Shown here: positions 6,093-51,120 of the stretch, piece after piece | Numbering within the stretch: position 1 is the first letter of the stretch | Layout of the letters: each line of letters begins with the position of its first letter | Assembly: GCA_037447655.1 (NCBI GenBank) | Contig: JBBHKE010001075.1 | Span: forward strand, 62,001 to 126,000 | Length of the DNA: 64,000 bases | Origin: Zygnema cylindricum | Taxonomy: Eukaryota; Streptophyta; Zygnematophyceae; Zygnematales; Zygnemataceae | Direction of reading: 5' to 3' | Translations under genes and position numbers: made by a program | The notes under the pieces: generated by a model | Database searches by the model: none | The model's input: only the letters and a program-made list of their open reading frames with translations | Told to the model about the DNA's origin: nothing

Positions 6093-6257
6093 TTTATTCC
6101 AAAATATACAATTAAGTGAAAATTTAGAAGTTAGAGAACGAAAGAATTCCATCGGGAATGGATTGTAGGCTAAAAAAAGGAAGACGGGCAAGCAGATCGG
6201 AAGGAGCCTTTGCACAATTTTTAACATCTCAAATTTTGATATCTTAATTGACTTCAT

Positions 6258-7435
6258 CTCTCTTTACAAATCCTTTTCCAAAAGTCTTTACCTCTATGTA
6301 AGAAGGATTAAGCCATAACAAAATAGTCCAATATTATGTTTCTCCAACATCATGCTATTTCCTAACGCTATGCATCCATGCTACATTCAATGGCTCGAAA
6401 GACTTGAAGGGCTTTTTTTTGGTCTTAGCTGAGAGCAAGAACATTTCTCACATTGGTAACTCACAACCAAAACATTTTCCCCCCATTCCTAAATGTATCG
6501 TGCGGAAATTTTCCGTAGCAAAAATTTCGTGCGGTTATTGTTTTGCGTCCGCGTGAGGCTTCCACTATTGGACATTTTGAAATTTTCGTACCATGTCCGG
6601 TTTCCGCATAAATATTCGCACGATTCGTAGTTTAAAACACAAATATTTATGGATTGGGTCATTTTCCAACGGCATGCATGTGACTGCATGCGACTACATG
6701 CTAATTCGCCGTTCACAAAACGACAAAACCAAACTTAATTGATATGCTGCGCCTGTTTTCCAACTTTTCAGTTTCCAGAGCAAAACATCCAATCGCCAAT
6801 GACCGATTCCCAAAGCCAGTGCCCAATTTTCAACTTTTTTTTCAAATTGCCGATATACCAATTTCTATTGGTCAATAACCATTCCACAATATCTCATTGC
6901 TAATGTCCGATGTCCAGTTTTCAATTTCCACATTCAATCTCCAGTGCGCAACTTATTACTGGTTTCCTATCTCTCTAATGACAAATTTCCAATTTTCAAA
7001 TTTTCAAACTTCCAATACTAACACACACTAACTTTAAATAGTAATGCTAGTACTCAATACAAACATTAATATATGATAGTATAGATTAATAGTACGTCAA
7101 CACAAGTGTGCACTCAATCAAAAGCACTCACAAAAATCACGCCATAGTGAGAGAGAGATTCAGCCGAAAATCAATACATTCAACCGAAATTTTTTCCAAA
7201 TACTAATCTCTTAACCTCTCTCTCTCTCCCTCTCTCTCACTCAATGTATATCTCTCAATCTTTATAAGCCAACACTAATATAAAGCCACAAAAACCACAA
7301 CTACAGTACACAATCACAACTGAGGGACCCGGCAGGTGCCAACGCGTACCGGACAAAACATCACTATGAAGTGTGAACTCTTACAAGTCTAAGGGCAAGT
7401 TCCCGTGTAACTGAAACTTTGAAACGCTACTTTGG
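6258..7435. other. Non-coding stretch with CCAATTT minisatellite
   Basis: No gene is recognised. From about 6,760 to 7,010 the sequence is a degenerate array of CCAATTTTCAATTTCCA-like words, similar in composition to the intronic arrays at 55.6-57.7 kb. CT-rich and poly-A-rich simple sequence follows at 7,140-7,260. Confidence 0.4.
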
Positions 7436-11425: not shown

Positions 11426-12023
11426 CAGAGGTCGCAAACGGTAAACCGAAACCGTGACCGACCGTTAATCGACCGCCCGCGCCAGATCCGGAACAAATTC
11501 GGTTGCCAAATTTTGGGGGCCGGGCGGTTGCGGTCGGTTGATTCACCAATTTAAAAATAAAAAGTCGGTTGTGGTCGGTTAACCAAAAAACAAAAATAAA
11601 CAAAAAAATTTACTGTCCATAGAGTCTAACATTATTGTACTTTGTTCTCTTTGGTATTGTAGAAGTACGTGACATCATGATTAGCGTCGCAAATCTGACA
11701 CGGTTGTAACACTATTCAATTCGCAAATATTAGGGAACGCGGCAAATCGTAATTATATGCTTATTATACTTCGTACATTGTTGCAAAGTACATTAACGTT
11801 AATATCAACGAGCATTGCAATTTTGTACTTTTTTGGTTACGGGCGGGGATGGTTAGTCGCGAGAAATCGAGTTTCGGTTAACTTTTATTTTCGTTAACGC
11901 CGGTCGGTTAACGGTTAACAATTTTGGAGCGTGACATAATGCGGTCGGGCGTCGGGTACTCAGATTTTGAAAAAAAAAACGGTCGGTTTGGGTTATGTAA
12001 AATTTTGACTTTTGCGACCTCTG
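11426..12023 (+). mobile_element. Short non-autonomous hAT-like element, left copy
   Basis: The 598-bp element begins CAGAGGTCGCAAACGG and ends TTTTGCGACCTCTG, an inverted terminal pair. It is flanked by the perfect 8-bp repeat GTACCCAT (11418-11425, 12024-12031). The interior is rich in GGTCGGTTAACC-type words. It has no coding capacity. Confidence 0.85.
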
Positions 12024-12110: not shown

Positions 12111-12571
12111 TAGAGGTCGCAAAAGTCAAAATTTTAGTTAACCGAAACCGACCGTTTTTTTTTTTTTCAAAATCTGAGTACCTGACGCCTGACCGGGTTA
12201 TGTCACGCTCCAAAATTGTTAACCGTTACCCGAAACGCGTTTACGAAAAAAAAAGTTAACCGAAACTCGATTTCTCGCGACTACTCGTAGCCGCCCGTAC
12301 CCGAATAAGTACAAAATTAGTGGTGTATCTCCCTTATACCTTCGACGTTACCAAGAGTACAAAGTACAATAATGTAGGATAGTATTGACAGTATAAAACA
12401 TTCAATTTTTCTCGTTTTTTGCTTACCCGACCGTAACCGATTTTTTATTTTTTTAGTGAATCACCCGCCCGACCCCCCAAATTTGGCAACCGAATCCGTT
12501 CCAATCCGGATCCGACGCGGGTGGTCGGTTAACCGTCGGTTGCGGTTTCGGTTAACCGTTTGCGACCTCTG
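12111..12571 (-). mobile_element. Short non-autonomous hAT-like element, right copy (inverted)
   Basis: It begins TAGAGGTCGCAAAAGTC and ends CGTTTGCGACCTCTG. Its flanking octamers TCTAATGG and TCTCATGC match at 6 of 8 positions. Its sequence is the reverse complement of large parts of 11,426-12,023, so together the two could form a long hairpin. It is shorter than the left copy by internal deletion. Confidence 0.75.
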
Positions 12572-26400: not shown

Positions 26401-29400
26401 CAGGAAAAGTTGATCCATGGATTTTTTTGAAGCCTTGAAACACATGGATATAATTTCCCGATCTGCAATTTCTTCATTTCTTCATTTCTCTGTTTCTTTT
26501 CTTAATTTCTTGATTTTTTTTTATTTTTTTTCATTATTCCTTTATTTTTTTATTTCAGTATTCCTTTATTTTTTTATTTCTTTACTTCTTTACTTCTTTA
26601 CTTCTTTATTTCTTTATTCCTTTTATTTCTTTCACAGATATTGGAACGTCGGTGAGTGTAAAATCATAAATTCTTGTTAATAACACTATTTAAGTGGCCC
26701 GAATTGAGCCGCGTGGCAAAACATAATTTAGTGTAGTTTAAACTAATAAAGTATTAACCCTAATAATTCACTTACTCTAATAGAGATGGGTGCAGTGTAG
26801 TCATTGGTATATAACATGTTTAAAGATGTATATAAAAATATAATATGTGTATAATATAGTATATATATAAAACCGCAAATATAATTTGATGTTTATGTTT
26901 CTTTTTCAATTGTTTTTTCCCAGGAGGAGATACGATTTGTCACTTTTCCGGAACTTATTGTGGGAATGCTTTTTTGTCCCCGAATGGGGAAGAGGGAGAC
27001 AATTGAAATAGTTGGTGCCGAATGTTTTAGCACATATCAGGGGTAAAATATTTTCTTTAAGAATATTATAGGAAAAATAATCTTAAAAAATATTTTATTT
27101 AGAATGTATCATTTAGCAAATTTATCAACATCTGCAGTACTGGAATTTATCTCTTTTCAAAACTGTCAATAAACGTGAGGTATATTCATTTTTTTTCTGC
27201 AGTTTTGAGTTGAAGGCATTTTTTTTACCTTCATTTCGCTTAAATTCGTTTCGGATCTCATATAAAACTTTTACCAATGTTTCTTTTAGAACTTGATTAA
27301 CTGAACAAATTTTCCTAAGAAAAAAATAATTAAACTGTTAAAAAAATAAATTACCTGTACAATATTTCCTACGCAAAAAATGTAATCTCTGATTAGAACA
27401 TGGATGACATTTTTATGTGAATACTCCCGTAAACGACTGATATTTGAGAATCCTAAAAAAAATCCAGAACTTATAAGTTCTAATGGTAATCTTTTGGTCA
27501 AAATTTTTGTATCGTTGACCTTCGAGAATGATCGAAAAAAATCCAAAGTCCGAGTGTCGACTTTTTGTCGTGGCTGTTTTGGACTAACATTCAAGCTGGT
27601 CTTGTTTACCTTTGAAACTGAAGCAATAATACTAAAAGTATTTGCTGAACATCCATTTCAAATATTGTATGACATTCTTCTGGTTCATAAGAGAATGTTA
27701 GAACAATTTGAATGTTTATGAGTTCTGGGAAATTTTGTGACAGTTTTGGACCAACATTCAAATTTTTTAAAACCCGTACTCGACGGGACGAGACCGACAG
27801 GGATGAATGGGGAAGAAGACGCAATAGAATAATTGCAATGGACGCCATTGATTCTGTGAAGGAAGGGCAATCTCAATGCTGGGGAATTAATAGGGAAATT
27901 GTCAGGTTGGTTTTCAAAATTTAGTGTCCCTCAATTCTATTGAAAGATTTCATCTCTTTCACAATGGTTCTTGCTATTTTGTTAGCGAAAAAGAATGTGG
28001 ATTTGTTAATTTTGTTGTAATTGTCATGATCATTTCTATAATCAAGCCTTGTTTAAACGTTCTCGTAATGATTATACATATATTTGTTCGACTAACTGAG
28101 TTCATTTCTAGTGGGAAAACTTTGTTGAAGCTTGATTTTCATATCCTACTCAACGTCGATTGTTTTGTTTACAAAAGTTAAATATGTTTAGCGTTTATAA
28201 CCAATACAAATTTCAATTTTAAATGAAGTGTTGCTAAGTTAAACTTACCAGATTCTTTCAGATCTCCTAGGTTGTCACGTCCTGCATTCCTTTTGTTTGT
28301 ACGTCATCACACCTGTTCATAAAAAATTAAACAAGAAGAAGAGATTTGAAAATGAACCTTTGAATTTCCAAGACATGTCTGTTTGCTTTCTATATAAGTC
28401 AAAGTAGTAACTGAACGAGTAAAAGCAGATTTCGAATCCATTCAACTTGTGTGCTTGTTTTTATTTATAATAGTTTTTAGTACTTTTTGGGTACTTCTTT
28501 TTTACTTTTAGCTAACTATACATCTGGTATTTCTGCACCAGGGAACTGGATAAAGCATTTTGTGGGTTCTGCCAAACCGAGGGAAAAATTCTGGGACTAA
28601 ATAAGGTACTTCCAAACTTTTTTAAGATGGGGAGGGAGGGGGGGGGAGGGAGGGAGGGAGAGGGAGGGAGGGAGGGAGAGGGAGGGGGAGGAGGGAGGGA
28701 GTGGGAGGGGGGAAGAGGGGGAGAGGGAGAGGGGGAGGGAGGGGGAGAGGGAGGGGGAGGGGGAGAGGGGGAGGGAGAGGGAGAGGGAGGGGAAGAAGGA
28801 GAGAGGGAGGGGGAGAGGGAGGGGGGGAGGGAGAGGGGAGGGGGAGGGCGAGGGGGAGGGGGAGGGGGGGAGGGGGGGAGGGGGGGAGGGGGGGGAGGGG
28901 GGGAGGGGTAAAATCATAAAAAACGAAAAAAAAATGAAATAAGCGCATGAATCGAACGAATAAATTGAAAAAAGAAAACAAGGTTAAAAAATATATATAT
29001 ATAAAAAGAATATGAAGATAATGAAGATAAAACAACGAACAATAACAAAAATAAGATAAAAAAAACTAAAAAAAAAAAAAAAAAAAGTGAAAAAAGAAGT
29101 GAAAGGAGTAAATAAAAAAATAAGAAAAAACAAAGAAATAAAATAAATCAAATTAAATTTCAAATTTGCACAAAAAAATGAAAGAAAATAAAAAAAATTG
29201 ACCCAAAGATAAAAAAAAAACAGGAAAAAGAGAAAAGAAAAGAAAAAGAGAGGGAGGGGGAGGGGGAGGGTGAGAGGAAGGGGGAGAGCTAGGGAGAGAG
29301 GGAGGGAGAAAGAGAGGGAGGGGGGGAGAGAGAGAGGGAGGGACGAAGAGGGAGTGGGAGAGGGAGAGAGAGAGAGAGGTTCGTGTTTTGCCAAGCCTTA

Positions 29401-31341
29401 ATTTCTGAAAGTAATTCACCGTTCACCACAATGAGCGGATGGAGAAAAATATACGGATGGTAAAATAAATACGGATGGTATAATATATGGATGACGGCAA
29501 AATTTTACGTAATTTGTGGTCTCCAGTAATTCCCCATTAATTTTCCATTAGTTTATAAGATCGTCCACTCCAATTTTGTGCAAAACCAGGAATAAATTGC
29601 ACTAAAACATCAATATGCCCCAGTCTAATCACAAAGACCTAATCGGAACCTTGAAATTATTTTTTTGTCTTGGGAAGTATTAAAATATTTGTCCTTTGAA
29701 AGCTTTATTTGAAATATTCTGGATTTTCTCTCACGGCTGCAGGAGAAGTTGGTTCCAATTGCAACTGGAAATTGGGGTTGTGGTGTTTTTGGAGGAGACC
29801 CGGAAATCAAAAGTATGATTCAATGGGCAGCTGCCTCAAAGGTGATACTAAATACTCAGACAATTAATAAATTATACTTTACTAATAAACTATAATTCAT
29901 AAAATAAATCTCTATCTGATATAACAACTATCCTAAAGATGGACATCGTTAACAGTAAACGTAATTGCATGTGAAATCGTTATCTAAACACTTTCTTGAA
30001 TAAACCTAGGATAAACTATTTGAAAGAATACTTTGTTAATGCGAGTTACAAAAGGATTCTAAAAGAGAAACAAGAGGGTTTGTTTTGCAGGCAAATCGAC
30101 CGGAGTTAGTGTACTTCACAGATGGAGTGATCAAAATGGACCGTCTTCAACAGGTACAAAAACAGTCTTCATTTCTTTTATTGTACAATCTTTGGCTATC
30201 GTAAGATGCGTACCGTCAGTGTTTCTCATAACATTCTAATAAACATGGTCTCCTAAAATTCTCGCCATTAACTGATTTCTTTCGTACCGCCAACTCTATT
30301 CCCCGTGTAAGAATCTCTTACTTCGTACTCCTTAGTCTTTTTGCTGACATCACAATAAGGGACAGGTTGTGGTATTTGTCAATGAAAGAGGTTTTGATGT
30401 TGGAGAACTTTGTTCGAATCTAATGGAGTATGGAGAACGTCAACGTTCGCAGGGATTCTTTACCTGGTTATTCGAATTGTACTCGTCTGGTGAGTTATAT
30501 AAGCCTAAAAACTGACGCCAATTGACAATAAACTTAAACATAATGAGATATATAGCCCAGAACTAACGCCAATAGACTTCAGTTTCGCAGGAGTTTCTCT
30601 CTAAATGTTCATATTCGGTACCTAATTAGGTGTCACAGATGTTCAATGGTAAAGAATTGAAACTAGTTGTGAAAAACACGGAATCAATGATGTTGTTCCT
30701 TCTTTTGCAACACCAAAGGAACCTACATTTATTTTTAAGTGGTCCCAGGCACAAATTTTTCTTGTCTTCTTAATGGAAAAACCACCACTAAATCTTTTAA
30801 CGGTTTCTTCCTCACAGGACCGCGGCCCTCTGATTACAAATCGAGTGCGAACTATTGGTCTCAATTAGAATCTATATTCTTCAAAGAAGAAAAGCCTTGT
30901 CAGCAAGACACAAGTGTCAGAGGACATGACCATCCACTAGCTGCGAGCGGGAGTGAGAGGGAGAGAGAGGGGGGGAGAGAGGGGGAGGGGGAGAGGGGGA
31001 GAAGGGGAGAGGGGGAGAGGGGGGGGAAGGGGGGAGGGAGAGGAGAGGGAGAGGGGAGAGGGGAGAGGGAGGGGGAGAGGGAGAGAGTGGGAGAGAGGGG
31101 GAGGGAGAGAGTGAGAGAAAGGGAAAGGGAAAGGGGGAAAGAGAGAGCGAGGGAGAGAGGGTTCAATACTGGGAGGGTACTGTATTGTATTGTCCAGTCC
31201 GAATTATGGTTGAGAGGGAGTCATGGAGGAAGAGTCTCAAAAAGTGTGTATGTCTGTCTATATCTGCCCGTACGGCCTGGTACCAGACAGTACAGTGAGA
31301 CGTTAGAGTGGGACGCTGGTAACAGTTTGCGCCTCCGCTGA
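23485..31341 (+). CDS. PARG: Poly(ADP-ribose) glycohydrolase, copy C with low-complexity tail
   Basis: This is the third PARG paralogue, on the plus strand. Exons: 23485-23751, 24223-24405, 25251-25354, 25651-25843, 25975-26079, 26924-27042, 27744-27905, 28542-28605, 29743-29841, 30091-30153, 30366-30489 and 30818-31341. All phases join, giving 668 codons plus stop. Seen: [42 protein letters not shown] / EEIRF, TYQGFGPTF (Phe at the second Tyr of the YxGY loop), [23 protein letters not shown] and [12 protein letters not shown]. Introns are larger than in A or B and contain GA-rich tracts at 26,090-26,340, 28,627-28,912 and 29,240-29,380, and a MITE near 26,650-26,800. The last exon begins GPRPSDYK and then reads in frame through a (GAGAGG)-type repeat, adding an Arg/Glu/Gly-rich tail before the stop at 31339-31341. 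The catalytic core call is firm. Whether the tail is translated or removed by splicing is unknown. Confidence 0.88.
26090..26340. repeat. GA-rich microsatellite in PARG-C intron 5
   Basis: GGGAGAGA-type purine repeats begin within about 15 bases after the exon 5 donor. Long open frames across it are compositional artefacts. Confidence 0.85.
26650..26800. mobile_element. MITE family 2 copy in PARG-C intron 5
   Basis: It shares TAACACTATTTAAGTGGCCCGAATTGAGCCGCGTGGCAAAAC-type text (read in parts) with the 1,740-1,930 copy and ends CTCTAATAGAGATGGGTGCAGTG. The left end is indistinct. Confidence 0.5.
28627..28912. repeat. G-rich purine repeat in PARG-C intron 8
   Basis: Nearly pure (GGGAGG)n-type sequence of about 285 bp starts some 20 bases after the exon 8 donor. 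The strand asymmetry and G-runs suggest G-quadruplex or triplex potential. A related purine tract follows at 29,240-29,380. Confidence 0.85.
30950..31165. repeat. GA-rich repeat within the PARG-C last exon
   Basis: GAGAGGGAGAGAG-type repeats remain open in the PARG frame and would encode an Arg/Glu/Gly-rich tail. Confidence 0.8.
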
Positions 31342-37215: not shown

Positions 37216-38373
37216 CTAAACTCCACACCCCCGAAGATCGAGGATGTGGATTGGATCCCTTATTGGAAGATCTGGGAGGCCCCGCCGGTCATCCGCCACC
37301 GTACTCCGCCGTACAAGGGTCGCGGCCTGCGCTCGTTGAAGAGCCACTGATACTCGTTGACGGTAAAACGCGTCGAGAAGGCTCGGGGGAGGGCTTCCTA
37401 AACCCCGGGTCTCAAATGTTTTCTTCGCACAGTCGCGGAGGAAATCATCAAACGACTTGTCCAAAGTACAAAAAATTTATGCGTCAAATGGCACAAATTG
37501 GTCCGCCGGGTCTCGGTGAGCATAATCTCTTTCCTTAGAAGTTGCTGCGTCCCAAGCCGCCACCCCTGTGTGTACCGCCGCGCAAGAAGAAACGTTGGTC
37601 CCAGTGGGATCCATGAGGACCACATCACCCAAAGTCCTCCCAGCCCCATGAAGGAAAACCAAGTCAACCCGAGGACTTCTAACGCCGTTAGACTGGGAGC
37701 GAGGAGGTAGTATATGAGAAACTTCACGCCTCACGGTGTAGCCTGCATCGTTACCAATTGCAAAATTGAGTCACGAACCAAATCATGCGCAACCGTACGT
37801 TCACCGCCGCTAGAGCAACGGAGAAGATGAATCCCGTCCGAGTCGATAGGTTGATGACAAACACAATGGGGTCGCCCACGAAGTGCAGGGTGGGGCAAAC
37901 CCAAACGAAGACGTAAGGCAGATGTGAACTGGTCGGACGTCAGACGAAGGGTTGAAAAAATTGGCGTAGCTTGCAGCCATGCACCAGCCCTTGGCCCAGA
38001 ACACGAACGCAGTCGAGCACGCCATTGAGCAGAAGAAGCGCGTTTAAAAGGTTATGGAATTCAACAGCTGCCAATTGCTCAGTTATACGTTGTTGGAGAT
38101 GAATAATGTCGTCGGAAATAAAAGTTTGAAAAGGGTGGAACCTGGTTTTTTGCATCAAGTGGGAGGAGCGCACGCACGGAGAGAAGAGTCTTATGGAAAG
38201 GAAAAAGGTTTTCCTCCACCTTAGGGACGACTTGGGCCAGAATTGGAACGTCATCGACGATAAAACGAGAGGTGGTGGTAGGTGCCACCAAAGACCAACT
38301 ACCCAAATATGCCGCCAGAGCAACTCTAGCCACAAGAATCAAACCTAAGCCGCCATTCGAAATAGGGAGACTT
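37216..38373 (-). pseudogene. Retrotransposon C-terminal region (CCHC and endonuclease-like)
   Basis: This resumes after the nested element with SLPISNGGLGLILVARVALAAYLGSW. After frame breaks it continues WRARLRSCSGPRAGAWLQA, LRLRLGLPHPAL, CVCHQPIDSDGIHLLRCSSG and GERTVAHDLVRD (38,020-37,745). It then reads RVDLVF..DVVLMDPTG and KERDYAHRDPADQFVPFD (about 37,690-37,480), and SFDDFLRDCAKK...FYRQRVSVALQRA. The Cys-Cys-His-Cys spacing and the following D...D region match the C-terminus of RLE-type non-LTR proteins. It is distributed over at least three frames. Confidence 0.75.
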
Positions 38374-38562
38374 TGTCGTGCATGAGAAGCAAGCAAGCAA
38401 ACATGCATCACAACCAGAAAAGTCATGCTCACAAACATACACAACAACGGAAATAAATATGAAAAGTCAGAAAAATATATACACTATGACAAGAAACAAT
38501 GGTGAAAATAACCCAAGAAAGAAGGGAAAGAATACTCCCCTAGAGTGAAGTGAACCCAATAA
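38374..38562 (-). repeat. Split direct repeat B2
   Basis: 189 bp, equal in length to B1 with about six substitutions. It forms the outer end of the element next to the host retrotransposon sequence. Confidence 0.9.
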
Positions 38563-39797
38563 ATACTTAGCCACAAGGTAGCCACTAGGCTCTTGGGTCT
38601 TCAACGTATTCTTTACAAGAGTTATCTCGTACGAAAGCAACGAAGCAAAATAAATAATTCCAACCAAAAACAAAGAAAACTCAAAATTCGGCCAAACTTC
38701 ACCCTTCCATTCCCAACCGAAAATACCAACAACACAAAAACAAACACCCAAACCGTTCAGCTGTCCGTGGGAAGGGCAGCCGGATCCGGATGCTTCTCCA
38801 CACGAACTCCAATCCACCACTTCCCAAAAATGACACAAGTTGGAGGGAAACCTTCCGGACTTGGCTTTGAGCCGCGTGGATTAAAAGCGTGGGCAGAATT
38901 ACAAGAGAGAATGTACGTAAACTATCTAGCCTCTACCGCTAGCTAGCAAAAGAAAGGAAGAAACTTGAGCAATCGGTGAGAGAGAGAGCAAGAGAAAAGC
39001 TCCGCCGCCAAGAGAAAATTCTTGTCCGAAAGCTAAATTCTCTAAGTCTGAGAATTAGGCTAAGTAAGAGCTACACTAGGCCTAAGCAAAATTAGCCTAC
39101 GTCTAGTCTACTTTACATGTATGAAACTACTAAGGATGTTGGCCAATAGGCGGCCAACATCGTCTGCCGTACGCCTGACAAAATCCACAATCCGAGGGTA
39201 AAAACCCTCCCTAACTACATGTGCGCGAACCTACATGGGTTCGCGACTTAAATAAATATATGTATCAAAGCGTCCCCCAGAAATCGCGATACGCCTCCAA
39301 AAGATACTTCACGTCGATACTCCCAAAATCGCGTGCATACGCACGAAACGAAACATAACGCACGAAACGAACCATATCGCACGAAATAAAAGGTCTAGCA
39401 CGAAATACTTGAAATCGCGTCACGTCGCCAAAACGATGTTTCGGGTCCAACTTCAAAAATCGTGTACCTACGCACGAAATGAAACATATCGCACGAAATT
39501 AGTACTACTCAATGAAACCTAAAAATATGAATCGGAATTAAATCGCACGTGAGAACGAAACTTATATATGCGTGCGAAAATCTTGCGTGCATGCATTAAA
39601 CCGCGCGTGCATGCATAAAACCGCGCGCGCGTGCCTTAAACTGCGCGTGCATACAAAATACCGCGCGTGCGTACAGAATACCGCGCGTGCGTGAGAAATA
39701 CTGCGCGTGCGTGAGAAATACTGCGCGTGCATGCAAAATACCGCGCGTGCGTGCATGATAACGTGCGCGCGAGCAGCTGACACGATGCGGCATGACA
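38563..39797 (-). repeat. Split direct repeat A2
   Basis: This is the 3' copy of A, followed on the minus strand directly by B2 and preceded by B1 plus a GC dinucleotide. Open frames inside it, in both A copies, are shared by descent and show no known domain. Confidence 0.9.
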
Positions 39798-39799
39798 GC

Positions 39800-39988
39800 T
39801 GTCGTGCATGAGAAGCAAGCAAGCAAACATGCATCACAACCAGAAAAGTCATGCTCACAAACATACAAAACAACGGAAATAAATATGAAAAGTCAGAAAA
39901 ATATATACAATATGAGAAGAAACAAAGGTGAAAATGACCCAAAAAAGAAGGGAAAGAATACTCCCCTAGAGTGAAGTGAACCCAATAA
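39800..39988 (-). repeat. Split direct repeat B1
   Basis: 189 bp, lying between the polypurine tract after ORF2 and A2. Read on minus, it starts TTATTGGGTTCACTTCACTC and ends GCACGACA. Confidence 0.9.
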
Positions 39989-40004
39989 TTCCCCCCCCAG
40001 CTCC
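39989..40004 (-). other. Polypurine tract
   Basis: On the minus strand GGAGCTGGGGGGGGAA follows the TAA stop of ORF2 and directly precedes B1. It is a candidate plus-strand primer site. Confidence 0.65.
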
Positions 40005-41201
40005 TTAGCCTGTGGAGGAGCTGGTCAAAACAGCTGAGGGCCTGGAAGAGATACGGAGGTAGCAATGGTCAGCCGGGTTGAAAGATAATGGAGAAGAAAG
40101 GCACTCCATGTGGAACCCTTGATCACCACCTATACATGCATAAACACTCTGCAAACTGAACATCCCATTAGTATGGCTATCCACCACATTGAGAATTTGT
40201 GGGAAGACCTTGGTGTCGACGTTATGGAGCCTTTCCGAGAAAAACGAGTTGCCATTGTCTTCTTGAAGTTTGATACTCGAAAATGCAGGGAGAGCGGAAG
40301 CCAAATGTGTCATAGTGGGCAACGGCTTGCGAGCAGAGACAAGAGGGAGGCAGATTTTGCGACCTGGAAAATTAGAGGGACGGTAGGAGAAGGTCTGATC
40401 ATGCATATCTACTCCTCCACCGATTCGGAAGATAACATCCTGTCCCACTAAGCATTCGTAGTCGTTTGATTTGGTGACCAATGCTCGGACAGAAACTTTT
40501 ACGGACTCATTCTCGGTTCCGTTGTGAAACCGAAAGACAAGCGGGTCCTTGGTAATTCTAAGCACCGACTCCGTGGTACCGGCTGAAGTAAGAAGCCGAG
40601 TAGACGTGGCTTGGAGCTTGTCTGGTGTCAGACCAAGCTTGAGCGCAAATCCGGATCCAAGGATCACGGGTTTGGCTCTAGTGTCCATGAGAGGGAGAGA
40701 AGGAGAAACACCATTAACAGAGAAGGACATTCGAGAATTGTCCAAGAAACTGATGTGAGGATCAAGGTTACGGCGCTCATCCGCGGTAACCGGCTGAATG
40801 ACTGAAAGACTACGGTTCAGTTGCAACGCCCTCAAAGCGGCGGCTGCAGCGAACTCGTCAACAAGAGGAGAGGCTTTGGGAACCTCATTAGGAAAAGGAG
40901 AGGCCTTGGGGGCCTCATCAATCATGGCAGAAAGGATGCTTAGTCGTTCCTTGACTCGATGTGCATCAAGTATGGTACTATCCAGAATGGTGAGAGCTTC
41001 AGCCACAATGGAGGAAGCTGTGTCCGGTAGAGGAGAGAGAGATTCTTTCTCGAAAGAAAGTGGAATACGGGAATTCTGTAATTTACCGTCCCGATTATGA
41101 TCAGGGGATCCCTTATCGAAAGTGGTTGCCCGTTGTTGGACCGTGGAATCCCGAAGGATTCGACCAACCAACGATGGCGTGTGGACGACTGTCCTTGCCA
41201 T
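40005..41201 (-). CDS. Protease-like ORF downstream of gag
   Basis: 398 codons from the ATG at 41,201 to the TAA at 40,005, in the same frame as gag and separated from it by a single TAG. Residues around 165-190 read LPLMDTRAKPVILGSGFALKLGL, which resembles retropepsin-type aspartic proteases (DTGA..vIl). The catalytic triplet is DTR rather than DTG/DSG. VSVRALV and YECLVGQDVIFRIGGGVD follow, again like the later strands of such domains. No RT follows. The enzyme may be inactive because of the Gly to Arg change, or this domain may have another role. The family call is moderately supported. Confidence 0.65.
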   Translation of the reverse strand: MARTVVHTPSLVGRILRDSTVQQRATTFDKGSPDHNRDGKLQNSRIPLSFEKESLSPLPDTASSIVAEALTILDSTILDAHRVKERLSILSAMIDEAPKASPFPNEVPKASPLVDEFAAAAALRALQLNRSLSVIQPVTADERRNLDPHISFLDNSRMSFSVNGVSPSLPLMDTRAKPVILGSGFALKLGLTPDKLQATSTRLLTSAGTTESVLRITKDPLVFRFHNGTENESVKVSVRALVTKSNDYECLVGQDVIFRIGGGVDMHDQTFSYRPSNFPGRKICLPLVSARKPLPTMTHLASALPAFSSIKLQEDNGNSFFSERLHNVDTKVFPQILNVVDSHTNGMFSLQSVYACIGGDQGFHMECLSSPLSFNPADHCYLRISSRPSAVLTSSSTG

Positions 41202-41210
41202 CCCCGTGAA

Positions 41211-42560
41211 CTAGGGTTTCATTTCGGCCATGAAGGCAGCGAATTGCTCCTTCATCATGGCGGCCATCATGACTTGTAACTCGGCCTTTTCCCTCTCTCT
41301 GCGAGAGGTCTTAGGCGGAGTCGCCTCTTTCTCTGTCTCGGAAGGAGGAGTGACCGGCTTGGTAGAACGGGCAGGAATTCCACCGTTCTGAATCTGATTC
41401 TGATAGGAAAAATTAGGATCGTTAACATGGCAACGGTGGACATAATGTCCCTTTTGGTTGCAATGGGTGCATGTGGCCGACTTATCCGGGCACATGCGGG
41501 CATCATGTCTCGTGTTTCCACATCGGAAACACAATCGGTTTCCGGAATTAAATGGCGGATTTCCCATGGCCGGCGTCTTTGGAGGCCTATTGTTGGGCCA
41601 TGGGCTACTAGGTGGAGAAAGTGGGGAAGCGACTTCCGAACGATCATGAGCTTCCCACCAACATGATTGCATCTCATATTCTACCGCATATTGAGCGGCT
41701 TGATCAAATGTAAATTTCAGACCGTAAGTCTGAGTGAGATGACTTTGTATAAAACGTTTCGATTGATCTGGAAACTGTCCAACAAATTTTTGAACAGCTT
41801 CCGCATCGGACATTAAGTCCGATAAAGCTTCTCGCAGAGTCTCCATGCAAGCACGTAAAGCAGGCGCGGTTTCGCCTGGTTTACGCGTGAAATTCATCAA
41901 TTCTTTCACCTGATCGGGGTTTTGCATCCGATACTCGGCTTCTAAGAAATCGAACATAACAGATAGTGGATCCCGCAACGGAATAATCATTTCTGGTCGT
42001 GCTGGGACAGCAGCACGAGCGGCCACAGCATATTGGCGAGGAATTTCTGGGACTGCGGGAATTAGGACAACACCTTGGGCATCTAAGACCTCGGGAAAAG
42101 CGGCATGGAATAGAATATCCGCTTGACCTATGACCTCGGGTGTACCAGCAAAAGGAGGGGAAAATTCCGTCATCGCAAGTATAACATCATACTTGCGGGA
42201 ATATAATGTAAGGGCCGAACCTCTGAGGTACCAGCCAAGAAGAGAAAATGCCACACGAAGATCAAATCGATCTTGATAGCGAAATGCCAAATCACGCATT
42301 TCGGTATTATAGAGCATACGGAAATGGGATAAAGACATGGTATCCTTCATCCCTGAAAAGCAAAATTGCATTTTCCCCATGCCCCCCTCTGAAAAGGAAG
42401 CCATGTCGTCAAAGGAAGAATGCACTAGTGGTTCCAAATTTGGACCAACCGAAAACGGATATGTGAGAGGATGGGAAAAGATTTCCTCTGAAAAGTCTCC
42501 TTCGATTCTATCTAGGGATGACCTAGAGGAAACTGAGGATAATGATGAGACTGTGGTCAA
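41211..42560 (-). CDS. gag: Gag polyprotein with two zinc knuckles
   Basis: This forms the nucleocapsid-type structural protein of the nested retroelement. The 449-codon stretch is open; its first codon at 42,560 is TTG, and the frame stays open upstream to about 42,695 without ATG. The first in-frame ATG is at 42,404 (MASFSEGGMG), giving 397 residues. The capsid-like part includes FLEAEYRMQNPDQVKELMNF and SDLMSDAEAVQKFVGQFP, as in retrotransposon gag domains. Two CCHC knuckles follow: CFRCGNTRHDARMC and CTHCNQKGHYVHRC. It ends at TAG (41,211-41,213), and the same frame reopens 9 bases later as the protease-like ORF, suggesting stop readthrough or re-initiation. Confidence 0.88.
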   Translation of the reverse strand: MTTVSSLSSVSSRSSLDRIEGDFSEEIFSHPLTYPFSVGPNLEPLVHSSFDDMASFSEGGMGKMQFCFSGMKDTMSLSHFRMLYNTEMRDLAFRYQDRFDLRVAFSLLGWYLRGSALTLYSRKYDVILAMTEFSPPFAGTPEVIGQADILFHAAFPEVLDAQGVVLIPAVPEIPRQYAVAARAAVPARPEMIIPLRDPLSVMFDFLEAEYRMQNPDQVKELMNFTRKPGETAPALRACMETLREALSDLMSDAEAVQKFVGQFPDQSKRFIQSHLTQTYGLKFTFDQAAQYAVEYEMQSCWWEAHDRSEVASPLSPPSSPWPNNRPPKTPAMGNPPFNSGNRLCFRCGNTRHDARMCPDKSATCTHCNQKGHYVHRCHVNDPNFSYQNQIQNGGIPARSTKPVTPPSETEKEATPPKTSRREREKAELQVMMAAMMKEQFAAFMAEMKP

Positions 42561-44363
42561 TACTGACCGAACAAACGGAGATCTAGGGGCCGCAACCGAA
42601 ACACGTGCGTCCGTAGACTCGGAGAAACTAGAAAGATCTAACTGCGGTGGATGGAAAAATGTTCGCCGCGAGTAGATCCGGATTGATAACGTAAGTTATC
42701 CCAATCCGTGGGCATAAACGAAGAGAAAACCCTCGATTATGACTAAAATATCAAAACGAACTAACCGAGGTGCGTCAAGTGACAGGCCAATCTAGACAAA
42801 ATAATTGAACTCACGAAGTCTCTAGCAAGACCCAGTGGTCAGATCTAGCAAAAAGCCGGAATACCAAAACCTCTACCCTGCAAACAATGGGGCAAGGCCG
42901 AAGGGCCAGATCTATAAAAACAAACAGAGAAACTATCCAGGCACCTTTCGGTGCAGATCTACAGTGGCACAGACAGAAAATTGTCTAAACAGTGCCACCA
43001 ACGACAAGATCTATGAAAGGAAATCCAATCCAGATAGTCACAGGGAAACTCAAGGCCACTCACGGCCAGATAGCATGCAAGGAAAACAAGGAAAATGCAA
43101 ATGCTCAAAAAGAAAGGTTCGTAATAGAACCAATCCACACCGAACCCCTACACGAGTGTCCAAATTACAAAGAAACGCTCCTGCACCCGCAAGGCATCGT
43201 GATACTTACAAACACCTTTAATACTCTGGTGAGTACTAAAAGTGAACCGAACTTGGTCGAGGCAAGTTGGATTTTGCAGATCTCCTTGGAATTGAACCCG
43301 CTCCGATTCCGAATAATCGTGTCAAAAACCACCGCTAAACACCAAAGCAATTAGTATCCTGCTAGGGTATGCGTATCAGCGCTATGCCACGCTATACCCA
43401 ACTATTAAGCAATGATAATTTTAGGTTATAATTCGTGCAATTCTAATATATATGAATATATATTTTTATTTTGCTAAGTGTTCTGAATGATTAAGGTTGG
43501 CAAGAGGAAAATAAAGAAAATATCAAATCCAACACAACCCAAACATCAACAAGATAGCAAATTAAGTTGCACCAAAGGAAAGAAAGATAAGAAATATTGA
43601 GAAAAGTTCAAAATAAAACACAAAATACGGTAAGATTGGGCAAAAAGGTTTCCCAAACCCTAATTCCACGCTGAAAAAATCAAAAATTTGCGACCAATGA
43701 ATGGTAATATGCTGACCTAGGGTTAAGAATTTCAAAAAATAAACCCTAAATACGCCCAAACCCTAAATCTGCGGCCGAAACCCTAAATCTGCGGCCAAAC
43801 CCTAATTCCGCAGATTAACCCTAAAAATCTGACACAAAATCAGACCTAAATCTGCAAACCAGAAATAGAGTGGAAGCAAGATAGAAGACAAGAAATGAAA
43901 GCAAGAAAGAAGAAACCAAAAAACCGAAACAAAATGTTTTTATTTTTTTATAAAATAAAATTTATAAATTAAGTTATTTTTATAATATATTTTCCCAATG
44001 CAAAACTGAAAACGAAAGCAAAAATAGAGAGAAAGTAGAATGAAACTTGTAGTAAAATAAAGCTAGATCAAAAGGAAAAAAAAACCAACTCAAATAAAAG
44101 GTGGAAGAAAATCTAGAAATGAAAAAATAGATTATATATTGAAAATAATGTAATTTTTATATTTTTTTTTTCCTTTAGCTTTATTTTATCACACAAAACT
44201 GAGAAGTAAAACTGAAAATGAAAGGTAAATAGGCAGGAAAATGGGAAGAAAAAAACAAGAATAAAAACTGAATTTGAAAAGTAATATTTTTTTTATGAAT
44301 TATTTTTATAAAAATAAACTTTTAGAAAATGTGATTTTTAAAAAGTGGAGCTTTTGGACAAGA
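42561..44363 (-). other. Leader region of the nested retroelement
   Basis: Non-coding between A1 and gag. The part at 43,740-43,830 repeats AAACCCTAAATCTGCGGCC three times in diverged form; 42,830-43,020 is rich in AGATCT words; 43,930-44,350 is AT-rich. No ORF with a known domain is seen. Confidence 0.5.
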
Positions 44364-45598
44364 ATACTAAGCCACAAGGTAGCCACTAGGCTCTTGGGTC
44401 TTCAACGTATTCTTTACAAGAGTTATCTCGTACGAAAGCAACGAAGCAAAATAAATAATTCCAACCAAAAACAAAGAAAACTCAAAATTCGGCCAAAATT
44501 CACCCTTCCATTCCCAACCGAAAATACCAACAACACAAAAACAAACACCCAAACCGTTCAGCTGTCCGTGGGAAGGGCAGCCGGATCCGGATGCTTCTCC
44601 ACACGAACTCCAATCCACCACTTCCCAAAAATGACACAAGTTGGAGGGAAACCTTCCGGACTTGGCTTTGAGCCGCGTGGATTAAAAGCGTGGGCAGAAT
44701 TACAAGAGAGAATGTACGTAAACTATCTAGCCTCTACCGCTAGCTAGCAAAAGAAAGGAAGAAACTTGAGCAATCGGTGAGAGAGAGAGCAAGAGAAAAG
44801 CTCCGCCGCCAAGAGAAAATTCTTGTCCGAAAGCTAAATTCTCTAAGTCAGAGAATTAGGCTAAGTAAGAGCTACACTAGGCCTAAGCAAAATTAGCCTA
44901 CGTCTAGTCTACTTTACATGTATGAAACTACTAAGGATGTTGGCCAATAGGCGGCCAACATCGTCTGCCGTACGCCTGACAAAATCCACAATCCGAGGGT
45001 AAAAACCCTCCCTAACTACATGTGCGCGAACCTACATGGGTTCGCGACTTAAATAAATATATGTATCAAAGCGTCCCCCAGAAATCGCGATACGCCTCCA
45101 AAAGATACTTCACGTCGATACTCCCAAAATCGCGTGCATACGCACGAAACGAAACATACCGCACGAAACGAACCATATCGCACGAAATAAAAGGTCTAGC
45201 ACGAAATACTTGAAATCGCGTCACGTCGCCAAAACGATGTTTCGGGTCCAACTTCAAAAATCGTGTACCTACGCACGAAATGAAACATATCGCACGAAAT
45301 TAGTACTACTCAATGAAACCTAAAAATATGAATCGGAATTAAATCGCACGTGAGAACGAAACTTATATATGCGTGCGAAAATCTTGCGTGCATGCATTAA
45401 ACCGCGCGTGCATGCATAAAACCGCGCGCGCGTGCCTTAAACTGCGCGTGCATACAAAATACCGCGCGTGCGTACAGAATACCGCGCGTGCGTGAGAAAT
45501 ACTGCGCGTGCGTGAGAAATACTGCGCGTGCATGCAAAATACCGCGCGTGCGTGCATGATAACGTGCGCGCGAGCAGCCGACACGATGCGGCATGACA
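44364..45598 (-). repeat. Split direct repeat A1
   Basis: This is the 5' copy (minus strand) of the 1,235-bp repeat, nearly identical to A2. It contains GC-rich alternating purine-pyrimidine units of about 20 bp at 45,380-45,580 and CGCACGAAA-type units at 45,130-45,300. B sequence does not follow it at 44,363; instead the internal region begins with CTTGTCC. No standard tRNA-Met primer site (TGGTATCAGAGC) is seen at the junction. Confidence 0.9.
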
Positions 45599-46513
45599 AC
45601 TTGCTTGTTGGCGCGCAAACGAACTTTCCGGCCGATCAAAAATCCCATGCCCAACAAGGTGGTGGAGTACGCTAAAGAGTTTGTCGTCAAAGTCATTAAG
45701 AGAAGACAAAAATTGAGTCGTTGGTGGGACAGTTCGGGCAAGATAAAGAGGACGTTGCACAAAACAACGGGTGAGGATTGCAAAAGCCACTTGGGAGTCG
45801 GAGAGCTTAGGAAGGTCATTAGATTGCGAGAGGTCCTCCAACAACGCATGTGTAACAACCTGATTCACAAAGGATGGGGTTCCAATAGGGGATCCTAAAG
45901 CTTTAATTCCCTCTGTTGAAGACGCAATTCGAAAACCCATAGGGACAGGGTAGTCGAAAGGTAAGCCTTGGGGGCACCGCGCTAAACACTTAGATGGGTT
46001 AACCGATAAACCGATCTTAGAAAGTTGCTCTGCAAAATTGGCGAAGGCAAACAAAACTTGATCTCGGGGTCTGACAATATGCGTATCATCCGTAATCGAA
46101 GGGAATAAACAACCAGGAAAAGCCAAAGCAGAGTCTCGTAGTGCCTGAAGGTGACCTTATGCAAAAAGGGGTGCCCCTAGAGGATCACCCTGGCGAGTGC
46201 CAGTTGCAGATTCTATTGTGGCAGCATCACCAAAAGGACCACCAAGAGGAAAAATGAGAGGGCTTGGACGAGAATAAAAGGCACGCACAAAAAGAAAAAT
46301 CTGGTTGATCGGCGATGGAGCGTGCCTTAACTCGCGAAAGATAGTATTTCGGCTAACTGTGTTAAATGCGTTGGCAACATCCACCTGAAGGACCACCCAA
46401 TCCGGATGGAGGTCTAGAAGAGCCCGAAGGCCATGAACAACTGCCTCACAACCCCCCGTGGTAGCAACTCCAAACTGGTGCGGTGTAAAGTGGTCATGGA
46501 AAGCCCCTTGAAG
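45599..46513 (-). pseudogene. Retrotransposon RT catalytic region (two stops, then insertion)
   Basis: This continues the 46,514-48,124 ORF in the same frame after its stop. It holds HFTPHQFGVATTGG, VVLQVDVANAFNTVSR (motif A Asp), TGTRQGDPLGAPLFA, then a TAA at 46,154-46,156, then HLQALRDSALAFPG and ITDDTHIVRP (motif C DD retained, usual Ala replaced by Thr). The frame then reads LSKIGLSVNPSKC and FARQQAS up to the insertion point at 45,598/45,599. Only two stop codons separate it from an open frame, so inactivation looks fairly recent. Confidence 0.82.
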
Positions 46514-50619: not shown

Positions 50620-51120
50620 CACCCTCTCTTTTGAGGGAGAGCAAGAGAGAGAAATTGGGAGAGAAAGAGGGAGGGAAAGAGGGAGGGAAGAGGGAGAGAA
50701 AGAGGGAGAAAAAGTGGGAGTGAAAGGGAAAGGAGAGAAAAGAAGGGCCAGAAAGAGGGAGAGAAAGATGAGAGAGAGGGAGAGAAAGTTAGAGGAAGAC
50801 AAAGTAAGAGAGGGGAGGAATAGAAAGAGAAAGAGGGAGATAAAAAGGGATAGAGGGAGAGAAAGAGGGAGAGAGAGGAGAGAAAGAGGGGAAGAAAGTG
50901 GGAGAGAAAGAGAGAGAGAGAGAAAGAGAAAGAGAGAAATAGAAGAGAAATAGGGAGAAAAAGGAGAGAGAGAGAGAGAGGGTGAGGGAGAGGGAGGGAA
51001 AGTGGGAGAGGGAGGGAAAGTGGGAGAAGGAGAAGGAGTGACGCCGGAAGAGAGATAGGGAGAGAAAGAGCGAGAGAAAGAGGGAGCGAAAGAGGTAATA
51101 GAGAGGTAGAGAAAAAGTAG
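50620..51120. repeat. GA-rich microsatellite, about 500 bp
   Basis: GAGAGAAAGAGGGA-type purine repeats. Long open frames on both strands here are compositional and are not called as genes. Confidence 0.9.

Follow-up and report, generated by a model that had tools for sequence, protein, structure and literature searches.

Split direct repeats in a gag/protease-only retroelement of Zygnema cylindricum, a probable pol-deleted Ty3/gypsy derivative

Introduction

Retrotransposons of the PAT, Ngaro and VIPER types are described, in the structural accounts given in PMC4157794 and PMC6681497, with two repeated segments, A and B, split in the order A1-internal-B1-A2-B2. The same order is found in a retroelement with gag-like and protease-like frames situated in a 64,000-nt stretch of the Zygnema cylindricum genome (contig JBBHKE010001075.1, positions 62,001 to 126,000), which is called here the window. 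In the same accounts (PMC4157794, PMC6681497) the PAT, Ngaro, Kangaroo and VIPER elements have a tyrosine recombinase, whereas the family studied here has a DDE integrase and 4-bp target site duplications.

An integrase element with the split-repeat order is already known: the legend of Fig. 4 in de Mendoza et al. (2018, PMC5890265) draws KnitGypsy-Dnmt3 of Klebsormidium nitens with a DIRS-like repeat order. Like the autonomous members of the Zygnema family, KnitGypsy-Dnmt3 has a gypsy domain composition, a Dnmt3-like methylase in Pol and the same order of repeats; on the other hand, the portions of that paper considered here do not mention target duplications, a priming site, variable joints, a gag-only derivative or a mechanism for it (PMC5890265). 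The kinship would be one of domain layout and repeat order, not of compared sequences. What we add are duplications and termini pointing to insertion of the integrase type, probable self-priming, a variable and apparently end-joined border, a putative attachment palindrome inside the long terminal repeat (LTR), and a family with gag and protease only. A mechanism for split repeats in gypsy elements was not met in our literature search, which did not extend to self-priming or to cleavage of 2-LTR junctions.

Self-primed Ty3/gypsy elements of the Tf1/sushi type carry a primer site complementary to a motif in their own leader; in Tf1-type self-priming this motif stands at the 5' end of the RNA, from which the primer is released by cleavage. 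The family described here likewise has a primer site complementary to its own RNA, a likeness of complementarity rather than of sequenced RNA ends; it differs in that the motif lies ~455 nt upstream of the A end. The plant elements known as TR-GAG and LARD are non-autonomous, pol-less, gag-bearing, multicopy LTR elements with two complete LTRs. The window family is also pol-less and multicopy with a conserved gag frame, but it has split repeats and has retained a protease frame. In retroviruses, 2-LTR circles are by-products regarded as a dead end, and integrase cleaves their palindromic junction in vitro. Here we find a comparable variety of joints (one added nucleotide, deletions, insertions from the side of the polypurine tract, PPT) and a palindrome presumably cut after CA; in contrast to the retroviral case, the apparent scar stands in A-I-B-A-B copies (I, internal region) and the cut palindrome would lie inside the LTR, not at the junction.

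Results

Copies of the element and their repeat order

The window element is likely to be a non-autonomous Ty3/gypsy element with a deleted pol, whose split repeats would result from integration through a site inside the LTR combined with joining of the ends of the complementary DNA (cDNA). Coordinates are given as positions in the window, the element is read on the minus strand, and the genome has 353 Mb. Repeat search and direct count gave two copies of A at an offset of 5,801, differing at 5 of 1,235 bases, and two copies of B at an offset of 1,426, differing at 6 of 189 bases. Their order on the minus strand, A1-internal-B1-A2-B2, agrees with a preliminary description of this DNA, which had reported these direct repeats. 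The length of A ranges from 1,215 to 1,275 nt in six copies with both edges, and its 5' part holds a 20-bp tandem array of ~8.6 units (39585-39756 and 45386-45557).

A probe made of B2 and a part of A2 found at least 41 places in the genome and yielded 30 full-length A.B matches; since 40 of 1,022 candidates were scored, the count is a lower bound. We read twenty stretches on 19 other contigs, plus seven extensions. The split-repeat order was present at L010, L012, L013, L017, L018, L019, L020, L021 and L022 (some of them truncated or with later insertions), and L009 had a damaged version of it. Solo A.B copies were seen at L014, L015, L016 and L028, while L023 to L027 were partial, deleted or chimeric; the A repeats of L026 differ at 219 of 1,050 bases, and this locus is probably a chimera of two elements. 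Neither the loci read nor the 30 full-length A.B matches included an LTR-internal-LTR copy with two complete LTRs, the arrangement named in the preliminary description as the one that would overturn its reading.

The recurrence of the split-repeat order at independent loci, which that description had suggested looking for, means that the arrangement in the window is not a one-off rearrangement, and we reject that explanation. Its second proposal, an LTR element integrated in a rearranged two-LTR form, came closest to our reading; the form is, however, a regular one in the family rather than an accident.

One AT-rich stretch (aaactagaaaatacaaaaa...acttatttcaaca) recurs in two copies: it breaks A2 in L018 (~6100-6260, element strand) and adjoins the broken A1 in L012 (~2270-2315). 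It may be a small mobile element of unrelated origin.

Termini, target site duplications and empty sites

The element has the termini TGTC...GACA and is flanked by a 4-bp target site duplication. Exact 4-bp duplications were found at 17 of 21 loci with both edges: AAGT in the window, GCGA (L009), GTGA (L010), TGCA (L013), AGCA (L014), ACCC (L016), AGAT (L017), ACGA (L018, where the first element base is changed), GCGC (L019), ATGC (L020), GTGG (L021), CACC (L022), AATT (L027), CTTA (L028), TTGT (C1063), ACAT (C207) and GTGG (C2053). The count leaves aside L012, which lost the 5' end of A1, and L023, L025 and L026, which have a single edge; the left-edge pieces L053, L054, L056, L082 and L084 had no recognisable A start.

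The predicted empty site, with one AAGT, had 75 genome matches at up to 3 mismatches (37 and 38 on the two strands; 6 exact), as matches to the site sequence itself irrespective of its surroundings, and a reversed control of the same sequence had 0. Taken at the level of sequence, the ends, the 4-bp duplication and the empty sites show an insertion of the integrase type. Both the duplication and the ends are as expected for Ty3/gypsy elements, with their 4-6 bp duplications and TG...CA termini. Insertion by a tyrosine recombinase would leave no such target site duplication.

The window element splits a LINE-like open reading frame on the minus strand (48157-45603 and 38373-37731), in which an RVT_1 stretch at 46160-46513 scored slightly under the cut-off (4.3e-6).

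Boundaries of the long terminal repeat

A PPT-like G-tract directly abuts B1; its G-run varies in length, and the B1 edge had no indel in any of 13 copies. The border of A1 with the internal region was equally free of indels (13/13 copies), as was the border of B1 with A2 (12/12), where a palindrome, GACAGCTGTC, marks the meeting point of B and A (the spacer is at in L026, not gc). The sequence spanning the A1/internal border, ATTCTTGTCCAAAAGCT, is complementary over 15-22 nt to a motif ~455 nt upstream of the A end, and this holds for the autonomous copy L031 as well. In 14 of 15 copies the complementarity exceeded the best value from 50 shuffles per copy. In the 15th copy, L018, the piece searched did not reach far enough, and the motif stands at the usual distance in the neighbouring piece. 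In the window copy the motif and the primer site are complementary over 17 nt with one G-U, and this helix appears in the leader fold predicted for that copy (z -2.9). We infer that the RNA primes itself by pairing of the A motif with the primer site after A1.

With the PPT before B1 and the primer site after A1, the LTR would therefore start with B and end with A. The PPT and the primer site adjoin the LTRs, as in Ty3/gypsy elements, if the LTR is read as B-A, but not if the integrated ends A...B are taken; two complete LTRs are absent from the integrated copy. We set aside a tRNA primer: a site for the 3' end of a tRNA begins with TGG, which the site after A1 does not, and no tRNA search was made.

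Variability of the A2/B2 joint

The 30 full-length A.B matches and L022 gave 31 joints; the probable chimera L026 and a second joint of L018, with other sequence inserted, were left out. A plain fusion of AGTAT with AATTAT was seen in 5 joints. The other 26 deviated from it, 8 by an added A and others by +T, +CG, +AT or deletions between 1 nt and tens of nt. The L019 joint has an 18-nt filler, 17 nt of which are an inverse copy of the sequence just behind the primer site, and the joints of L016 and L022 hold stretches from upstream of the PPT. The joint in the window equals that of L009 except for one base. By comparison, no indel turned up in 38 readings of the three other borders (Fisher p 2e-14, with the relatedness of the copies uncorrected). 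The A2/B2 border thus resembles, as far as its sequence can tell, an end-joined 2-LTR junction.

The arrangement is also strictly asymmetric. All 30 full-length A.B matches have B outermost, and in none of them does gc-TGTC with a further A come after it, so that the mirror order A-B-A-I-B did not occur among them; if circles were opened at random, half of the copies would be expected in the mirror order (sign test 2e-9).

Autonomous relatives

An autonomous relative, L021 with L031 (C228), has ~10.9 kb, the same repeat order and the duplication GTGG. Gag, protease, C5 DNA methylase, reverse transcriptase (RT)/RNase H and H2C2/rve integrase lie in separate frames. Pfam domains found in L021 were DNA_methylase (PF00145, 2.7e-9), RVT_1, RT_RNaseH, Integrase_H2C2 and rve, with zf-CCHC (20.3 bits) and Asp_protease_2 (21.3 bits) slightly below the cut-offs in the autonomous relative. 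The best solved relatives were DNMT3A for the methylase, and the Ty3 and PFV integrases for the integrase. No tyrosine recombinase (Phage_integrase) was found in the Pfam scan of seven L021 frames. The order RT-RNase H-integrase of a Ty3/gypsy Pol is present in L021, while the window copy is without these domains. Judged by its domains, the L021 lineage is Ty3/gypsy with a Dnmt3-like methylase and a DDE integrase. Of the larger relative sought in the preliminary description, with RT and a tyrosine recombinase, the RT part was found; its integrase is of the DDE type.

Searches with the integrase and with the methylase-RT region gave at least 113 and at least 84 genome matches (112 of 9,287 and 81 of 2,258 candidates scored, respectively). 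The distant subfamilies C1344 and C561, 69% and 68% identical in methylase-RT, likewise have the arrangement PPT-B1-A2-B2. Among viral contigs the integrase had 2 pattern matches, neither of them confirmed. The Dnmt3-like methylase of L021 (3692-4540; one copy) keeps the catalytic cysteine but lacks the proline that precedes it in DNMT3A (gwECq vs gsPCn).

The gag/protease-only family

Within the internal region of the window copy, the gag-like and protease-like frames were the only ones recognised as coding, both with Pfam scores under the curated cut-offs (zf-CCHC 10.8 bits, gag-asp_proteas 14.6 bits). No homologues of the window gag were found at E 0.001 among 7,997 candidates scored. Residues 33-331 of the protease-like frame align to the protease frame of the autonomous relative with 70% identity over 299 aligned positions, and residues 331-354 align to the C-terminal end of the integrase frame there, with 12 identities in 24 positions. 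The protease frame of the window family continues straight into this integrase-end stretch, with DNMT, RT, RNase H and most of the integrase deleted between them. By this evidence the window copy belongs to a multicopy family in which gag and protease remain and the other parts of pol have been lost. The earlier suggestion of a replicating, non-autonomous element with gag and protease only is borne out, as other copies share its order.

For 15 of the 45 possible pairs among ten copies we counted the ratio of nonsynonymous to synonymous substitution rates (dN/dS). The ratio was 0.21-0.60 in 13 pairs for gag (0.94 and 1.11 in the other two) and 0.23-0.56 in 14 pairs for the protease (0.70 in the remaining one); a part of these low values may have been carried over from autonomous ancestors. 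In a scan of eleven sequences, with L025 unmatched, the active-site DTG of the protease was present in nine other copies. It is altered in the window copy (~40690, minus strand), and the protease of this copy is therefore probably inactive, although its frame is open.

Features of the element are collected in Table 1. Elsewhere in the window we noted an inverted repeat with 161-nt arms, 89% complementary and 178 nt apart (11819-11979 / 12158-12318), and purine-rich tandem arrays of the GGGAGG/GAGAGA type (28634-31161 and 50633-51114).

Table 1. Positions of the features of the split-repeat element in the window.
Feature	Position	Strand	Evidence or remark
Target site duplication AAGT, left copy	45599..45602	-	flank comparison; empty-site matches
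A1, begins TGTC; holds 20-bp tandem array and putative self-priming motif	44363..45598	-	
Motif AGCTTTCGGACAAGAAT in A1	44819..44835	-	complementary to primer-binding site; A2 copy 39018-39034
Putative primer-binding site ATTCTTGTCCAAAAGCT	44349..44365	-	spans A1/internal border
Internal region	44362-39991	-	
gag-like frame, two CCHC knuckles, 494 codons open	41211..42695	-	
Protease-like frame, 401 codons open	40005..41210	-	
Polypurine-tract-like AAGGAGCTGGGGGGGG	39991..40006	-	immediately upstream of B1
B1, end GACA	39800..39990	-	
2-nt spacer gc between B1 and A2	39799-39798	-	
Palindrome GACA-gc-TGTC, B1/A2 border	39794..39803	-	putative integrase attachment site within LTR
A2, begins TGTC	38563..39797	-	
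A2/B2 joint	38558..38568	-	putative product of end joining at insertion
B2, GACA = right edge of element	38374..38562	-	
Target site duplication AAGT, right copy	38370..38373	-	flank comparison; empty-site matches

Discussion

A possible origin of the split repeats

In the scheme that we propose, self-primed RNA would be copied into a linear cDNA of the layout B-A-I-B-A, with the left end AATTATTGGG after the PPT and the right end ...AGTAT before the primer site. Integrase would ignore these ends; it would instead cleave both strands of GACA^gc^TGTC in the left LTR, each of them after CA, and the new TGTC/GACA ends would be inserted into the target with a 4-bp stagger. The true cDNA ends would be joined by host end joining, either before this step, which would make a 2-LTR circle the substrate, or after it, in repair of the gapped chromosome. 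With a cDNA of this layout, B2 would have to stem from joining of its two ends, and the product would be A1-internal-B1-A2.B2, its A2.B2 border being the scar. RT and integrase would be supplied in trans by autonomous members. The components of the scheme are read from the sequence; we infer the order of the steps. As a guess, the left LTR may be preferred for having its B/A site double-stranded first, or for having that site only ~190 bp from the cDNA end.

More tentatively, a gypsy lineage might integrate an end-joined 2-LTR circle through a palindrome inside its LTR, a possibility to which we give somewhat less than even odds. Circles would then be replicative intermediates, and split repeats would have evolved without a tyrosine recombinase.

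Several observations weigh against the end-joining scheme. The scheme has to assume a strict choice of the left LTR. Among the loci with both edges, a duplication is missing at L015, L024 and C2577 (an A-I-B copy), and at C449 the two flanks agree in 3 of 4 positions. In the window the B pair is more divergent than the A pair (6/189 vs 5/1,235, Fisher p 0.001). This is unfavourable, since a single cycle is expected to leave no difference within either pair; copying from two RNA templates is a possible cause. In 4 of 12 copies (the window, L009, L010 and L026) another copy is nearer to B2 than the copy's own B1. The recurrent joints, i.e., the plain fusion in 5 and the added A in 8, could be partly inherited. 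Finally, we took 20 of the 113 integrase matches, from the better ones and without copies already known to carry A.B; B was followed by A2 in 10 and by other DNA in 5 (A-I-B), and 5 were unreadable. Two A-I-B copies, C2053 (L062/L083, in the sample) and C207 (L059/L060, read separately), have exact duplications and no A2-B2, and therefore the joint is not obligatory.

Alternative explanations

The recurrent joints, including the near identity of the window and L009 joints, and the larger divergence of the window B pair would also fit a border inherited through RNA. B2 would then be the ordinary genomic 3' end, copied in each cycle, and the variability of the joint would be decay at an unconstrained spot. 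We consider this unlikely. Target DNA follows directly after B2, and no element sequence is left there that could hold a primer site. Close copies have different joints, as in L042/L043 (0.5% apart over 215 bases beside the joint) and L040/L048 (1.4% apart over 219 bases), and partly templated filler occurs in a copy whose A repeats differ at 1/1,260 bases. Moreover, in 6 of the 12 copies the nearest match of B2 was the B1 of the same copy (for example, 0.000 vs 0.037 in L019 and 0.045 vs 0.176 in L021), and the distances were tied in 2, L012 and L013.

Even less probable is that A-I-B is the primary product, formed by linear two-ended integration with TGTC of the left LTR and GACA of the right one, and that A-I-B-A-B is secondary, e.g., from cDNA recombination or tandem joining. 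The A-I-B copies of the integrase sample, 5 of 15 readable ones, and the two A-I-B copies with exact duplications are what it would predict. However, B followed by A2 was commoner even in that sample (10/15), and the borders appear end-joined. An A-I-B copy, with no A downstream, should also be unable to supply the RNA 3' end for reverse transcription, and A-I-B may itself come from B1 x B2 recombination; these copies could otherwise derive from a one-LTR circle, or from two-ended integration that uses a site in each LTR. In L063 and L066, B and gc are followed by non-A DNA; C2577 corresponds to L066/L081, whose edges share no duplication.

The preliminary description had favoured a gag/protease-only derivative of a PAT/Ngaro/Kangaroo-type tyrosine-recombinase lineage, its circle inserted by site-specific recombination; the identical repeat order speaks for this, but the exact 4-bp duplications at 17/21 loci, the empty sites, the variable A2/B2 joints, and the Ty3-type DDE (rve) integrase of L021, with no tyrosine recombinase in its seven scanned frames, make it highly improbable, and we reject this membership on the duplications and the integrase.

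Significance

Split direct repeats serve as a hallmark by which tyrosine-recombinase elements are recognised. Repeat order alone misclassifies, because split repeats arise here in an integrase element. If A2.B2 is an end-joining scar, every A-I-B-A-B insertion would record one event of cDNA end joining, and the family would be a natural test of 2-LTR circle integration. The gag/protease-only family suggests, in addition, that a satellite without pol can maintain this unusual cycle.

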